Below are positions 47,865-53,926 of a stretch of 64,000 bases of DNA, piece after piece (positions within the stretch are counted from its first letter, which is position 1; every line of letters begins with the position of its first letter). Both the position numbers and the translations under genes were made by a program. The notes beneath the pieces were generated by a model that did no database searches, was not told where the DNA came from, and saw nothing but the letters and a program-made list of their open reading frames with translations. Origin of the DNA: Arthrobacter globiformis (GTDB lineage: Bacteria; Actinomycetota; Actinomycetes; Actinomycetales; Micrococcaceae). The stretch is from positions 4,588,001 to 4,652,000 of the forward strand of contig NZ_JAUSXI010000001.1 in assembly GCF_030815865.1 (NCBI RefSeq). The letters run 5' to 3'.

Positions 47865-49682
47865 ATGGCCAAGCAGAGTTCATTTTTTCGATCCGTCAGC
47901 CGTCTCTATCCGCACGTGAAGCCGGTCCTGCCGCGCCTGTTTATGGGCCTGCTGTCGGCGCTCCTGGCCAGCGTGGTTGCCCTTGCCATCCCGCAGGTGC
48001 TGCGCGTGCTCATCAATGATTCCCTCCGGCCCGGGGCCACCGCAGACGCCGTGTGGGGCTCAGCCGGCCTCATCCTGGCCTTGGGCGTCGCCGAAGCGGT
48101 GCTGGTTGCCCTGCGCCGCACGTTCGTGATCAACCCGGCCACCACCGTGGAGACCCGGATGAGGGTCTCGCTCTACGGCCACCTGCAGGACCTCCCCGTC
48201 TCCTTCCATGATCGCTGGGGCTCTGGCCAACTGCTCTCCCGCGCCATGACGGACCTCAACTTCATCCGACGCTGGATGGCATTCGGGGCCATCATGCTGG
48301 TGGTGACCACCCTGACGGTGGTGATCGGCGTCGTCGTCATGTTCACCATGAGCTGGCAGCTGGCCCTGATCTTCGTGGCCGCCGCGGGACCCGTGATGGT
48401 CTACGGGTTCCGGTTCCGGACCCGCTTCAGCAAGGTCACCCGCCGCAGCCAGGACCAGGCCGGTGACCTCGCCACCACGGTTGAAGAATCCGTCCACGGC
48501 ATCCGCGTGCTGAAGGCCTTCGGCCGCAGCCGCGAAGCACTGGAAACCTTCAACGGCCAGGCCGAGGAACTGCGCCAGACGGAGATTGCCAAGGCCCGGC
48601 ACCAGGCCGTATTCAGCATGGTCGTGACGCTCCTGCCCGAGCTGGCGCTGGGCGCGGGTCTGGTAACTGGAATCATGCTCGCAGCCAGTGGCCAGCTCAG
48701 CATCGGCTCCCTCGTGGCCTTCTTCGCCACCGCCGCCGTCATCGCCGCGCCCGTCGAGTTCTCGGGCATGCTGCTGGCCATGGCCTTGACGGCGAAAACT
48801 GCCCTGGACCGGCACTTCGAGGTCATGGATTCCCAAAACACGATCACCGGCGCGGCCGAGCCCCGCCGCCTGGCCGACGTTAGAGGCGCGCTGAGCTTCA
48901 ACAACGTGGCGTTCGCGTTCGACGACGCCCCGGACAAACCGGTCCTGAAGGACATCCGGCTGGATATCCGTCCGGGCGAGACCATGGCGCTGGTGGGCAT
49001 CACCGGCAGCGGCAAAAGTGCCCTGCTGCAGCTGGTGCCCCGGCTCTATGACGTCACGGCGGGTTCCATTGAACTCGACGGCGTGGACCTGCGGGACTTC
49101 AGCGTCGAGGAACTCCGCACCCTGGTGGCTGTTGCCTTCGAGGACACCACCCTGTTCTCCAGCTCGGTGCGCGACAATGTGCTGCTCGGCGTCCGGTCCG
49201 AAGACACCGGCACCCGCGAAAAGATCCTGGCCGAGGCACTGGACACCGCCCAGGCACACTTCGCCTACTCGCTGCCTGAGGGGCTGGACACCCTCATCGG
49301 CGAGGAAGGCCTCAGCCTGTCCGGCGGCCAGCGCCAGCGCCTCGCCCTGGCGCGGGCCATCGCAGCCGCGCCCGCCGTGCTGGTCCTGGACGATCCCCTC
49401 TCCGCCCTGGACGTGAACACCGAGGAGCTCGTGGAAAACCGCCTGCGGGAGGTGCTGGCAGGCACCACGACGCTCATCGTCGCCCACCGCCCGTCCACCG
49501 TGGCGCTGGCCGACAGGGTGGCGCTGCTGGAGGACGGCCGCATCTCCGCCGTCGGAACCCACACCGAACTGCTGGCCGGCAACAGCCATTACCGTCACGT
49601 GATCGCGAGCCTGGAGACGGAGCCCCGTGACCTGGACTCCGAGCTGTCGGCCCTCGACGACGCCGAGGAGGTCAGCCGGTGA
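47865..49682 (+). CDS. ABC exporter half-transporter, subunit 1
   Basis: A 605-residue type IV ABC exporter subunit: six membrane helices (about 20-310) and one nucleotide-binding domain. Walker A is GITGSGKS and the signature is [16 protein letters not shown]. Walker B is [12 protein letters not shown], where Asp510 replaces the catalytic Glu, and the H-loop is VAHRPSTV. It therefore supplies the inactive-site Walker motifs and the active-site signature. It overlaps the next gene by 4 bases (GTGA) and forms a heterodimer with it, as in TM287/288 or BmrCD. Substrate unknown; multidrug or lipid. Confidence 0.93.
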
Positions 49683-51562
49683 GCAACACAGCCTTCGGTA
49701 CCGCCAATGAGGACAACGCCAACCTGAGCAAGAGCGACAGCAAGGCAGTACGGCGCCGGTCGCTCGCCTTGCTGGGATCGCTGATCCGGCCGGTGCAGTT
49801 GCGTTTCTGGCTCACGATCGCCATGGTGGTCCTGGCACAGACGGCCCGGGTGGCCGGCCCGGCGCTGATCGCCTTCGGCATCGACCATGCGTTGCCCGCC
49901 CTCCGCGCGGGCAACAGCCTCCCGCTGGTGCTGGCCGGCGTCGCCTACCTGATCACGGCGCTGGCGGCAGCCGGACTCACCGCCCTGTACGTAACGTCGA
50001 CGGCGAGGCTCAGCCAGGCCATGCTGCTGGACCTGCGGCTGTGGGTTTTCCGCCACACCCAGCGGCTCAGCCTCGAGTTCCACGAGAAGTACACCTCGGG
50101 GCGGATCATCGCGCGGCAGACCTCGGACCTGGAGGCCCTGCGTGAACTCCTGGACTCGGGGGTCAGCTCGCTCGCCTCCGGCCTGCTGTTCATGCTGTTC
50201 ACCGCCGTCACCGTCTTTGCCCTCGACTGGCGCAGCGGACTGGTAGTGCTGGCCGCGGCCGTCCCCATGTTTTTCCTGGCCCGCTGGTACCAGAAGCACT
50301 CGCAGAAAGCGTTCCGCCAGTCCCGGGTGGTCTCGGCCCGGCTTATCGTGCACTTCATCGAGACCATGACCGGCATCCGCGCGGTCAAGGCCTTCCGTAA
50401 GGAACGCGAAAACGCCGGCCGCTACGGCGAACTCGCCGAGGACTACCGGCGGGCGACTGTCCGCTCCATCAACCTGAACGGCGTCTTCCAGCCCGGCCTG
50501 GTGCTGATCGGCAACGTCTGCGTGGCCGCCGTGCTGCTGTTCGGCGGCTTCCGGGTGCTGACCGGTGACCTGGCCGTGGGCGTGCTGCTGGCCCTCATGC
50601 TCTCCACTAAGCGCTTCTTCCAGCCCGTGGACCAGATGGCCATGTTCTACAACTCCTTCCAAAGCGCGCAGGCCGCGCTGGAGAAGGTCTCGGGCCTGCT
50701 CGAGGAGGTGCCCACGGTGCGCCCGCCGCGGAACGCGGTGGAACTCCACGACGCCCGCGGCGCCGTCGAATTCCGTGACGTTGAGTTCCGCTACAGCACC
50801 GGGCCGCTCATCATCCCCACGCTGAACCTCACCATTCCGGCGGGCCAGACCGTGGCGCTGGTGGGCCAGACCGGTGCGGGCAAGTCCACGCTTGCCAAGC
50901 TGATTGCCCGCTTCTATGACGTGTCCGCCGGTTCTGTGACGCTCGACGGCGTGGACGTCCGGCAGCTGGCCACCGCGGACCTGCGGCGGAACATTGTGAT
51001 GGTGACGCAGGAGGCCTTCCTGTTCAGCGGCTCGGTGGCGGACAACATCGCCCTGGGCCGGCCGGAGGCACCGCGTGAGGAGATCGAGGCCGCCGCAAAG
51101 GCCGTGGGTGCGCACGAGTTCATCATGGAGCTCCCCGAGGGATACGACACCGACGTCAACAAGCGCGGCGGCCGGGTCTCCGCGGGCCAGCGCCAGCTGA
51201 TCAGCTTTGCGCGCGCGTTCCTTGCCCGGCCGGCGGTCCTGATCCTGGACGAGGCCACGTCCTCGCTGGACATTCCCTCCGAACGGCTCGTGCAGAGCGG
51301 CCTGGCCAGGCTCCTGCGAGGAATGGACGGCACCGGCCGCGGCCGCGCAACTCAGGGAGCGCCGACCGCCGACGGAACGTCCCGCGGAACCGCGCGCACG
51401 GCGCTGATCATCGCGCACCGGCTATCGACCGTGGAGACGGCTGACAGGGTGCTCGTGGTCCATGACGGACAGGTGGTGGAGGACGGAACGCCGGACGAAC
51501 TGATCGGTGGCAAGGGCCGCTTCGCCCGCCTGCACAGCGCCTGGAAGGACTCGCTGGTCTGA
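49679..51562 (+). CDS. ABC exporter half-transporter, subunit 2
   Basis: A 627-residue partner of the preceding subunit. Walker A is GQTGAGKST, and Walker B is intact, [11 protein letters not shown] with Glu525. The signature is degenerate, VSAGQRQ (500-506), instead of LSGGQ. About 25 residues rich in Gly/Thr/Arg are inserted before the H-loop IAHRLSTV. The degenerate signature faces the Asp510-containing Walker B of subunit 1, so one of the two ATP sites is expected not to hydrolyse. Confidence 0.93.
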
Positions 51563-51646: not shown

Positions 51647-51723
<77 letters not shown>

Positions 51724-52194: not shown

Positions 52195-52237
52195 GGTCCC
52201 CACTCCTCCTCAGCTACGGCTGCTGTTTCTGGAAAGA

Positions 52238-52287
52238 AAAACGGCCCCGGAACATGATGTGCGCATGTTCCGGGACCGTTTTCCTCA
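52238..52287 (-). terminator. Terminator of the repeat-peptide gene
   Basis: Arms 52238-52256 (AAAACGGCCCCGGAACATG) and 52264-52282 match at 18 of 19 positions with a 7-base loop. Read on the minus strand the stem is followed by a U-rich run (TTTTTCTTT), beginning 16 bases after the peptide stop. This marks the peptide gene as its own short transcript. Confidence 0.85.
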
Positions 52288-52297
52288 TGGAAGCTGT

Positions 52298-52531
52298 TTA
52301 CATGGGATCAGGCCAGTTGCCAATGGTGGTCTCTGACACCATGGGATCAGGCCAGTTGCCGATAGTGGTCTTGTTCACGTCCTTGACGCGCATCGGATCC
52401 GGCCAGTTGCCAATGGCAACCGAGGTGCCCGCGTTGTCCGCCATCGAGCCTGCAGACAGAACGGCGGGAGCCGCAGCAGAAAATGCAAGGGCCCCTGCCA
52501 AAATGGCGGCGGCTGCTATCTTCTTTAACAT
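52298..52531 (-). CDS. Secreted peptide precursor with three IGNWPDPM repeats
   Basis: A 77-residue protein unlike any family I can name. A Lys-Lys N-region and hydrophobic helix (MLKKIAAAAILAGALAFSAA) form a Sec signal peptide; cleavage is possible after APA (about residue 23) or SA (about 27). The mature part carries IGNWPDPM exactly three times at 40-47, 57-64 and 70-77, the last copy ending the protein. Copies 2 and 3 are preceded by Thr-Thr. No cysteines, so it is not a disulfide-bonded toxin. AGGAA lies upstream of ATG 52531. It has its own promoter and terminator and is divergent from an XRE-TPR regulator. A multi-copy signalling-peptide precursor is the best explanation. Confidence 0.8.
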   Translation of the reverse strand: MLKKIAAAAILAGALAFSAAAPAVLSAGSMADNAGTSVAIGNWPDPMRVKDVNKTTIGNWPDPMVSETTIGNWPDPM

Positions 52532-52584
52532 GTGAGAGTTCCTCAATACGAGTCGGATTTGCTACCAAGTCAGCACAGTCCTTG

Positions 52585-52624
52585 TTGACATACATTGTAA
52601 AATGTTGTCCACAGAGGGTGTCAA
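52585..52624. promoter_or_regulatory. Divergent promoter region with a dyad between peptide and regulator genes
   Basis: Minus strand: -35 TTGACA (complement of 52619-52624) and -10 TTTACA (complement of 52596-52601) are 17 bases apart and would drive the peptide gene with a leader of about 60 bases. The overlapping TACAAT is an alternative -10. Plus strand: another TTGACA lies at 52585-52590. GACA-ACATT and AATGT-TGTC form an approximate dyad across 52587-52609, overlapping the peptide promoter, a natural place for the adjacent regulator to bind. Confidence 0.6.
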
Positions 52625-52663
52625 GCATTCTGTACAAAGGCTGTCCGGAATAGGAGGAACTCA

Positions 52664-53926
52664 GTGGGCAACGGATTCGGGGAGAAGCTCCGCGCTGAGC
52701 GGCTGGAGCGCGGACTGACCCAGGCCGAACTGGGCAGGGATCTGTACTCCCCCAGCTACATTTCCCTGCTGGAGACAGGCCGGCGGGAACCCACAGCCGA
52801 CGTCATCGAAGAGCTCGCCCGCAGGCTGGAGCTCGCGCCCAAGGCGCTCGAAGCGTGGAGCCAGCCCATCTCGGTCAGCGACGCCGAGTACGTGCTGGCC
52901 GGCCTCTATGCCCGGCAGGCATGGGACTTGCGCGACTACGGCCTCGCGGCCGAACACGCCGCGAACGCTGCCCGGATCGCCCTCGACGGCAAGAACACCA
53001 GCGCCTGGTGGAACATGACCTACATGCAGGCCGAATGCCTCATGAAGCAGGGCCAGCTCAAGGAATGCCAGAAGATCATGGAGCACCTCTCCGAGCACCC
53101 CATGGCCACGGAATCGGCCGGTCTGGGTGTCCGGGCGCGCCAGATGCTCGCCGCCCTGTGCCACGGGCAGGGCCAGCTGGGCACCGCCGTCGAACACGCC
53201 GAGAAGGCCGTGGAGCTGTGCGCGCAGCTACCCAAAGGCTCAACACTGATCATTGGGGCGCTCCGCGCGCTGATAGGGGCGCTGGCCGAGAGTGGCCGGC
53301 TCGACGAGGCGTGGAAGTACTGCCAGGACATGAATGAGCAGATGGACGAGCATTCGATGTCCCAGCTCGCGGGCGAGGTGGCATGGGTGATCGGCAATGT
53401 CGCGTTCATGCGGCACGACTACCCGGAGGGCATCAAGCACCACGAGCGGGCGGCTAAGCTGCTCTCCCCCGCCAACGACATCGAGCTGTGGGCCCGCTTT
53501 AACAAGGCGTCGGCCGCCGTCCGCCTCTCCTCCGGAATCGTTGAGCCGGAGACCCTGTCCGCCATTGAGCGCGCCGAACTCGCGCTGTCCATCGTCGGCG
53601 GGAACAAGACGGACCAACTGGAAGTCGCCTTCATCCGCGCCCGCTGGCTCTATCTCACGGGCGACATCGTGGCTGCAGTCCAGAAGCTCCGCGACATCCA
53701 CGCCGAACGCATGGATCTGGCCAAGCACACGGCCGGCGAGGTTTCGCTGCTTCTCGGCAAATCGCTAAAGGCTGCGGGCGAAGGGGATGAGGCGCTGGTG
53801 CATCTGCAGGAGGCGCAGAAGGAATTCAGTGCCGCCGGCGCGCAGGACCGGGTCCAGCAGGCCCTCGATGCCGTGCTGGAGATCCGGCTCGCCCAGCGCC
53901 GTGCGGCAGCAGCCGAAGCCAGCTAG
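52664..53926 (+). CDS. XRE-family regulator with C-terminal TPR domain (RRNPP-like)
   Basis: A 420-residue protein. Residues 8-58 form a Cro/CI helix-turn-helix (GLTQAELGRDLYSPSYISLL). The remaining 350 residues are helical with repeated TPR patterns (for example WWNMTYMQAECLMKQGQLKE and ALRALIGALAESGRLDEAW). This is the architecture of RRNPP peptide receptors such as Rgg and PlcR, where the TPR groove binds a short imported peptide. GGAGG lies before GTG 52664. It is divergent from a gene for a secreted triple-repeat peptide, which is the likely ligand. Helical-repeat XRE regulators without peptide partners also exist. Confidence 0.85.
   Translation: MGNGFGEKLRAERLERGLTQAELGRDLYSPSYISLLETGRREPTADVIEELARRLELAPKALEAWSQPISVSDAEYVLAGLYARQAWDLRDYGLAAEHAANAARIALDGKNTSAWWNMTYMQAECLMKQGQLKECQKIMEHLSEHPMATESAGLGVRARQMLAALCHGQGQLGTAVEHAEKAVELCAQLPKGSTLIIGALRALIGALAESGRLDEAWKYCQDMNEQMDEHSMSQLAGEVAWVIGNVAFMRHDYPEGIKHHERAAKLLSPANDIELWARFNKASAAVRLSSGIVEPETLSAIERAELALSIVGGNKTDQLEVAFIRARWLYLTGDIVAAVQKLRDIHAERMDLAKHTAGEVSLLLGKSLKAAGEGDEALVHLQEAQKEFSAAGAQDRVQQALDAVLEIRLAQRRAAAAEAS

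Follow-up and report, generated by a model that had tools for sequence, protein, structure and literature searches.

What is the function of a small secreted protein that repeats one octapeptide three times and is transcribed divergently from a helix-turn-helix (HTH) regulator in Arthrobacter globiformis? The two genes lie in a window of 64,000 nucleotides, the whole stretch of DNA analyzed (contig NZ_JAUSXI010000001.1, positions 4,588,001 to 4,652,000). The initial annotation read them as an RRNPP-like peptide-signalling system, and this reading is supported by tests of linkage, repeat conservation, and diverged receptor/peptide pairs. We consider it probable (about 0.77) from sequence comparison that the octapeptide and the regulator, which has HTH and tetratricopeptide repeat (TPR) domains, form a peptide-pheromone system working like RRNPP quorum sensing of Bacillota, here in Actinomycetota. 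The observation extends beyond the original pair to a second, HTH-less receptor family, to unlinked leaderless peptide sources, and to other genera.

The precursor gene has the following elements, numbered by position in the window:
52298..52531, minus strand: putative pheromone precursor gene, 77 aa, ATG start, stop at 52300-52298
52451..52531, minus strand: Sec-type signal peptide, approximately residues 1-27 (MLKKIAAAAILAGALAFSAAAPAVLSA), from sequence and hydropathy of the precursor and its orthologues
52391..52414, minus strand: IGNWPDPM copy 1, residues 40-47
52340..52363, minus strand: IGNWPDPM copy 2, residues 57-64
52301..52324, minus strand: IGNWPDPM copy 3, residues 70-77, exactly C-terminal

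The protein (77 aa, minus-strand ORF 52531-52298) is laid out as MLKKIAAAAILAGALAFSAAAPAVLSA-GSMADNAGTSVA-IGNWPDPM-RVKDVNKTT-IGNWPDPM-VSETT-IGNWPDPM. Its N-terminus is Sec-like, with Lys-Lys followed by a hydrophobic stretch; signal peptides throughout were called by hydropathy. The ORF list and translation agree with the annotated coordinates and with three exact copies, the last of which is the C-terminus. Precursor homologues (120 listed) are annotated as “hypothetical protein” or “low-complexity protein,” and once as “predicted phage tail protein.”

Repeat copies within one precursor differ mainly at synonymous sites. When copies were recognized by exact pattern, 531 of approximately 966 synonymous sites and 6 of approximately 3768 nonsynonymous sites differed (proportions pS 0.55 and pN 0.0016; 261 copies and 263 pairs from 95 precursors distinct by repeat DNA, degenerate copies left out). 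Under loose recognition, which accepted any window sharing three of six core residues, pS was 0.546 and pN was 0.020 (271 copies, 287 within-precursor pairs), and the extra nonsynonymous changes came mostly from a degenerate GNWADQ copy in seven precursors. The claim that the repeat is conserved at the protein level is thus upheld. The repeats could be functionless low-complexity tandem duplications, conserved through recent duplication or shared ancestry, and some database entries do call these proteins low-complexity. However, spacers are not conserved, and the excess of pS (0.55) over pN (0.02) leaves this explanation with almost no probability; the codon differences between copies rule out both chance and recent duplication as the origin of the repeat.

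The pattern G[NI]WP[DNY]P defined copies in the strict codon count and for the inner positions of the conservation profile, which by itself accounts for part of the conservation within the core. Position -1 (I/V, 3.2 bits) and the M (3.8 bits) are not fixed by this pattern, and information outside the octapeptide is mostly 1.0-1.8 bits, with 2.2 bits at -2. Precursors end exactly on the octapeptide in 97 of 98 distinct genus sequences, the arrangement of a short mature peptide at the propeptide C-terminus. Copy number in these 98 is one in 2, two in 49, three in 27, four in 19, and five in 1. High information in the octapeptide, low information in the spacers, and the C-terminal ending make [IV]GNWPDP[MAV] the likely ligand and suggest that the spacers between copies are disposable. 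The annotation had proposed either the octapeptide or the decapeptide TTIGNWPDPM as the unit; the former is preferred because conservation drops outside -1 and +6, and the decapeptide is ruled out by weak conservation before -1.

Conservation of the divergent pair was assessed in the best 80 of 298 named relatives (Arthrobacter, Pseudarthrobacter, and Paenarthrobacter). An adjacent small gene for a secreted propeptide, in the form of an uninterrupted divergent precursor with a Trp-Pro (W-P) peptide, is present in 77 of these 80 loci, and 76 of the 77 have two to four copies. The other three (L155, L156, and L188) keep the receptor, and their precursor is cut short by an in-frame stop behind copy 1; these Arthrobacter/Pseudarthrobacter strains are possible non-signalling listeners. 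As a control, the same W-P ORF rule applied downstream of the receptor gave six matches on the minus strand and none on the plus strand in 184 loci. The Sec-like N-terminus is kept in 29 of 30 genus loci in one listing, and the thirtieth (L012) has it in a second.

At E <= 1e-20, a receptor relative was found in all 37 same-genus genomes (own included), in 221 of the 395 family genomes, spread over 17 of 32 genera, and in none of 22 genomes of other families. The degenerate DNA motif GGNAAYTGGCCNGAYCC occurs in 114 of the 395 family genomes, compared with 5 for a reversed control pattern. Among 77 same-genus genomes, counted by eye, at least two motif copies lie on one strand in 70 and fewer in three, and the motif is absent from four. 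These last four encode SGNWPNPM x2 (G399 and G433), SGNWPYPM x2 (G425), or SGNWPYPV x1 (G015), and the receptors beside these SGNWP-type peptides, at 78-81% identity, belong to the most diverged in the genus. The expectation that the peptide gene is conserved beside the regulator in related genomes therefore holds, and diverged receptors carry diverged peptides.

The regulator has the following elements:
52664..53926, plus strand: putative receptor-regulator, 420 aa, XRE HTH plus TPR, GTG start
52676..52855, plus strand: HTH domain, residues 5-64 (PF13560/PF01381)
52886..53908, plus strand: TPR domain, approximately residues 75-415, proposed octapeptide-binding domain, from sequence alignment
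53042..53059, plus strand: codons 127-132, of which M127 and L132 covary with residue 1 of the octapeptide
53162..53164, plus strand: H167, the third covarying residue

It had been described as a divergent XRE HTH protein with TPR-like helices, and it scores above Pfam cut-offs for HTH_31/HTH_3 and TPR_12/TPR_14. Conserved residues of its TPR domain are W115, W116, N245, H260, N280, R287, and W328. Relatives are named helix-turn-helix, XRE-family, or pentatricopeptide repeat proteins in databases.

Covariation between receptor and peptide was measured by comparing distances in 75 of the 80 named loci, the other five being without a usable precursor, octapeptide, or purC; the neighboring gene purC, confirmed as SAICAR synthetase, served as the comparison. 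TPR distance correlates with octapeptide distance (Mantel r 0.535), also when purC is taken into account (partial Mantel r 0.566, 0 of 2000 permutations). The corresponding values are -0.11 for HTH and octapeptide given purC, and -0.32 for purC given TPR. A column scan used 95 of the 102 distinct receptors for which an octapeptide is present, and the peptides of these 95 are of the GNWPDP type. The first octapeptide residue is I in 61, with M127/L132 in 61/61, and V in 34, with residue 127 being I or L and residue 132 W or Y in 34/34, so that residue 1 agrees with receptor residues 127 and 132 in 95/95. Receptor residue 167 is H with I (61/61) and Q with V (33/34). The sizes are complementary: the larger side chain in the peptide is paired with the smaller one in the receptor, and vice versa.

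The best purC tree requires at least 14 changes between I and V, many of them on unsupported branches. Residue 132 switches together with peptide residue 1 in 7/7 supported-branch contrasts (p 0.0156, the column having been selected from these data). Trees give eight I/V switches for the rest of the receptor and two for receptor residues 110-175 alone; peptide gene and specificity segment therefore move together, whether through exchange or through repeated changes. In this sample, which is mostly one genus, peptide and receptor segment are not mismatched. Outside the clade, the relation is similar but not strict: residue 132 is aromatic in 22 of 28 cases with V/P/T at position 1 and in 2 of 17 with I/M (Fisher 1.4e-5, kinship uncorrected). 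An all-genera mutual-information analysis was set aside; identical receptors were merged to 148, peptide labels for six loci (L069, L102, L103, L104, L108, and L233) were set by hand, and three chance-like labels were omitted. Its result was dominated by phylogeny and the missing HTH, so within-clade contrasts with the purC tree were used. Binding of the octapeptide in the TPR domain is supported by this covariation, and peptide residue 1 probably packs near receptor residue 132.

HTH-less receptors provide a second line of evidence. The A. globiformis genome (G000) encodes a 355-aa TPR paralogue without HTH (approximately 4,509,238-4,510,305; L033 5239-6306), which is 41-42% identical to the receptor TPR domain and aligned along its length. 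No Pfam TPR model reaches cut-off for this branch. A 52-aa Sec-type ORF ending SVGWWPH is divergent from the paralogue, and all 17 further same-genus loci fetched for this paralogue (L092-L108) have an xxWP Sec-type ORF, mostly GWWP (12 in a first pass, 5 in a second). Peptides of this family include IGWWPN, VGWWPN, PGWWPD, VNWWPN, VDYWPN, and IGSWPN and similar, in one to five copies. HTH-less receptors keep their peptide neighbor, so the conserved link is of peptide to TPR and not to HTH. A GGDEF-EAL gene lies within the fetched flank in 17/17 of these genus loci and, counting every genus examined, in 24 of 28 TPR-only loci, compared with 0 of the 80 named HTH loci. In the A. globiformis genome, a histidine kinase is encoded on the other side of the paralogue; this neighborhood is L033 3073-8263. 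From this gene neighborhood, peptide input to cyclic di-GMP (c-di-GMP) signalling via the HTH-less receptor is possible.

These results bear on whether the exported repeat peptide serves some other purpose (as an antimicrobial, as a surface ligand, or in metal or wall binding), with the HTH-TPR protein merely regulating it in response to something else. A divergent regulator with a conserved promoter block would fit such simple local regulation. However, the TPR domain tracks the octapeptide beyond purC, and TPR-only receptors have the same kind of peptide neighbor. In addition, no obvious peptide-modification or immunity gene is found beside the pair in the window ORF list, although no family search was made. 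We regard this explanation as improbable.

Receptors of 43-77% identity in other genera adjoin precursors with different W-P peptides, single or repeated, and W-P is the element common to all of them:
g28: AIGNWPDPM
g40: VGNWPDP[SATF]
g39: AVGIWPNS
g49: FVGNWPDAV, RVGNWPDAS, ATGNWPN
g50: PGNWPD
g45: PGIWPDS, VWIWPD
g38: VGDWPH[SA] and relatives, up to 8 copies
g51: VGEWPH
g36: AVGNWPDRF x5

A W-P peptide is also encoded beside a diverged receptor in g52. In g31 and g53, very short precursors (16-32 aa) without a clear signal are located beside the receptor (MRNFVSFISGRVNWPF; MKILQAPNPASAGTRVGDWPD; and a 32-aa ORF ending GIGDWPHA[AD]). The four receptor loci fetched from family f17, of the same order, include one 58-aa Sec-type ORF with GGSWPT x3 and one 56-aa ORF ending MSDTWPA.

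The octapeptide is also encoded away from receptors. The A. globiformis genome has a signal-less ORF with four IGNWPDPM copies (approximately 1,598,399-1,598,605; L032 4400-4606, minus strand) and an 83-aa ORF ending NIGNWPDPM (approximately 4,727,199-4,727,447; L034 5200-5448, minus strand). Among 20 further unlinked sites, drawn from the motif matches listed and not from all matches, 14 look by eye like leaderless octapeptide ORFs and 6 were set aside as chance-like (L110, L117, L119, L121, L123, and L126). Several leaderless ORFs start with MS and have a Shine-Dalgarno match; some of the 14 are without such a match, and one (L114) has only 11 codons. Small signal-less unlinked ORFs with one to four IGNWPDPM copies are found at L032, L034, L035, L036, L122, and L128, and those of L036 and L122 combine GNWPDPM with the GWWP motif that accompanies the HTH-less receptors. 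Residue 1 of the unlinked peptide is the same as in the linked one in 4/4 V genomes (G243, G439, G435, and G272) and in 9/10 I genomes (the miss is G394), a table with probability 5/1001 = 0.005, computed by hand. G029 has T at residue 1 of its linked peptide, and its unlinked copies are mixed. No RNA element was found by Rfam at gathering score near the unlinked ORFs of nine loci. To our knowledge, the unlinked leaderless sources raise a question that does not arise for known RRNPP systems.

Such sources could indicate that the octapeptide binds the TPR domain but acts only inside the producing cell, as a cytosolic or retained ligand by which the cell monitors synthesis, secretion, or proteolysis, with no signalling between cells. 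The unlinked signal-less ORFs, which mostly match the receptor type of their genome, and the leaderless 16-32 aa precursors adjoining receptors in some other genera would suit this explanation. On the other hand, the preserved Sec-like N-terminus of the linked precursor would be odd for a purely cytosolic ligand, and we consider the explanation unlikely, if less so than a peptide with another job. More speculatively, relatives of Arthrobacter may have a two-source pheromone network with matched alleles (pherotypes). The Sec-exported linked precursor would broadcast the octapeptide, and unlinked signal-less genes would supply the same octapeptide, sometimes with a GWWP peptide, from inside the cell or on lysis. 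This would set or bypass a quorum and couple transcription to c-di-GMP, while receptor segment and peptide gene would be exchanged between strains as a specificity cassette. We offer this network tentatively, as an extension that is doubtful at present.

Control of the pair would involve the following elements:
52234..52286, minus strand: intrinsic-terminator hairpin 3' of the precursor gene, -38.4 kcal/mol, z -8.0
52585..52624, no strand assigned: candidate conserved divergent promoter/operator block TTGACA...TGTCAA, with palindrome ACATTGTAAAATGT at 52592-52605, from intergenic alignment

The precursor gene was proposed to have its own promoter and terminator. The terminator stands, as a strong 23-bp hairpin with a U-run closing the 3' arm (0 of 200 shuffles were as good). 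No sigma-70-like promoter was found for the precursor gene under the rule of the consensus scan, and the promoter was for this reason inferred from conservation. An own promoter is plausible; the TTGACA...ACATTGTAAAATGT...TGTCAA block is conserved across aligned genus intergenic regions (60 of 87 distinct regions), which also retain TTGACATACATTGTAAAATGTTTTCCACAG...CTGTCAAG. The ACATT-GTAA-AATGT palindrome overlaps a possible -10 of the precursor gene. Upstream of the pair, two successive ABC exporter-type ORFs (ABC_membrane and ABC_tran; window 47865-51562, plus strand) are separated from it by a tRNA-Pro (51647-51723) and a 125-aa ORF.

In the proposed mechanism, the 77-aa precursor would be exported by Sec and cut into octapeptides [IV]GNWPDP[MAV], a unit shown by conservation. 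The octapeptide would return to the cytosol through an oligopeptide permease; oligopeptide-binding proteins (SBP_bac_5) are encoded in the same genome, and these are of a general kind. It would then be bound in the TPR domain of the divergent HTH-TPR protein, as covariation suggests, and the loaded or free receptor would control the shared divergent promoter at the palindrome, closing a feedback loop. The pair has radiated into paralogues and orthologues whose W-P peptides differ, and the HTH-less branch beside the GGDEF-EAL gene probably has a Rap-like action on c-di-GMP signalling.

Several results weigh against a pheromone system of the RRNPP kind. None of 56 receptors matches at E <= 0.001 the Pfam/NCBIfam models that we take to be RRNPP-specific (RNPP_C, ComR_TPR, Rgg C-terminal, and similar), and they match generic HTH and TPR models only. 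Two operator patterns, searched in the A. globiformis genome with up to three mismatches, have no match beyond the receptor's own promoter, so the regulon search by this route was abandoned; local feedback control of the divergent promoter would then be the best-supported output. The nearly invariant HTH (97% identical on average) gives its lack of covariation little power. Columns 127, 132, and 167 are the best of all receptor columns on the same data, and the p value for residue 132 is consequently not that of a prior hypothesis; the co-switching can also reflect exchange of a peptide-receptor segment rather than repeated point co-evolution. Some precursors contain the degenerate extra copy. 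Finally, a peptide beside the receptor is absent in 32 of 178 HTH loci, a set in which unnamed and named genome loci overlap and are not independent genomes, and three of the 146 positives are chance-like. The 32 include 16 of 18 fetched g45 loci and seven extra g28 paralogues. The g45 loci without an adjoining precursor (L055-L058, L062, L063, and L077-L086) are possible solo receptors; passages of PMC9765709 propose similar solo receptors in Bacillota as eavesdroppers.

RRNPP receptors have a C-terminal TPR domain with or without an HTH, and both forms are found here, one by Pfam HTH and TPR matches and the other by alignment along the receptor TPR. A profile of the 56 receptor sequences finds PlcR (2qfc) weakly, at E 2.1e-8 and 36.7 bits over residues 3-194, in a match that spans the HTH and part of the TPR, but an HTH-only match reaches 35.1 bits. 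A profile of the receptor TPR alone retrieves no solved RRNPP receptor. A tblastn comparison of the receptor with 50,697 phage records gave no match at 1e-5, and a phage-borne arbitrium-like (AimR-AimP) system was rejected. Plasmids carry distant relatives (16 records, Streptomyces in 14) with 24.7-27.8% identity in the ten that were listed; these were excluded from the family, as the three inspected have no convincing W-P precursor. In one locus (L248 2766-2999), a 77-aa ORF with a hydrophobic Ala-rich N-terminus overlaps a distant Streptomyces plasmid HTH-TPR regulator (approximately 26% identity), possibly another receptor-peptide pair without the W-P motif.

Among known systems, PlcR-PapR and NprR-NprX of Bacillus (the HTH-TPR branch of RRNPP/RRNPPA) share with this pair an HTH-TPR receptor, an adjacent small secreted propeptide, and a short C-terminal peptide. 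The pair differs from them in belonging to Actinomycetota, in divergent gene order, in the W-P core, in matching no RRNPP-specific model, and in two to four copies being the rule in the genus (95/98 precursors). Streptococcal Rgg-SHP and ComR-ComS have very short leaderless precursors, as in g31 and g53, but the main family here is Sec-type and repeated, and TIGR01716 matches none of the 56 receptors. ComS peptides carry Trp residues. Rap-Phr of Bacillus resembles the GWWPN family in having an HTH-less TPR receptor beside a Sec-type propeptide; the differences are the GGDEF-EAL neighbor and the lack of a match of Rap-specific models to the A. globiformis member at E <= 0.01. AloR-AloP of Paenibacillus polymyxa is similar in its many paralogous HTH-TPR receptor/propeptide pairs in one lineage, a likeness at the level of gene pairs; passages of PMC7425212 describe it in Bacillota and in aloR-aloP operon order, whereas the order here is divergent. 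Multiple copies per precursor had been considered unusual for RRNPP peptides, and this does not hold. Sections of PMC9765709 and PMC11343458 report repeated propeptides; in the former, those of NprR among the atypically large propeptides are repeated in 17/17, and the latter describes duplicated Phr in phi105 and phi3T and up to 8 pheromone copies. Repetition alone is therefore not new.

The hosts are Arthrobacter and relatives, which are common in soil and lie outside the Bacillota in which RRNPP systems are described. The relevant passages of four papers (PMC10075063, PMC9765709, PMC6540685, and PMC13220807) describe RRNPP in Firmicutes/Gram-positives without an actinobacterial case, and according to the first, Actinomycetota typically use small molecules made by enzymes. 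In Arthrobacter, a 2016 review of Actinobacteria (PMC4748050) names LuxR-type homologues; for the phylum as a whole, it mentions gamma-butyrolactones as well as peptides that are cyclic or modified. In the open-licence literature searched on RRNPP or peptide quorum sensing in Actinomycetota, Arthrobacter, Micrococcaceae, and Streptomyces, and on the literal motif, no such system turned up. The sequence comparisons point to an undescribed family of bacterial peptide messages. If the pheromone reading is true, a genus-wide and multi-genus W-P peptide code with intracellular TPR receptors opens linear-peptide communication in Actinomycetota to direct test, and the covariation yields ready hypotheses about which peptide residue meets which receptor residue. 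The second receptor family beside the GGDEF-EAL gene would tie peptide signalling to c-di-GMP.

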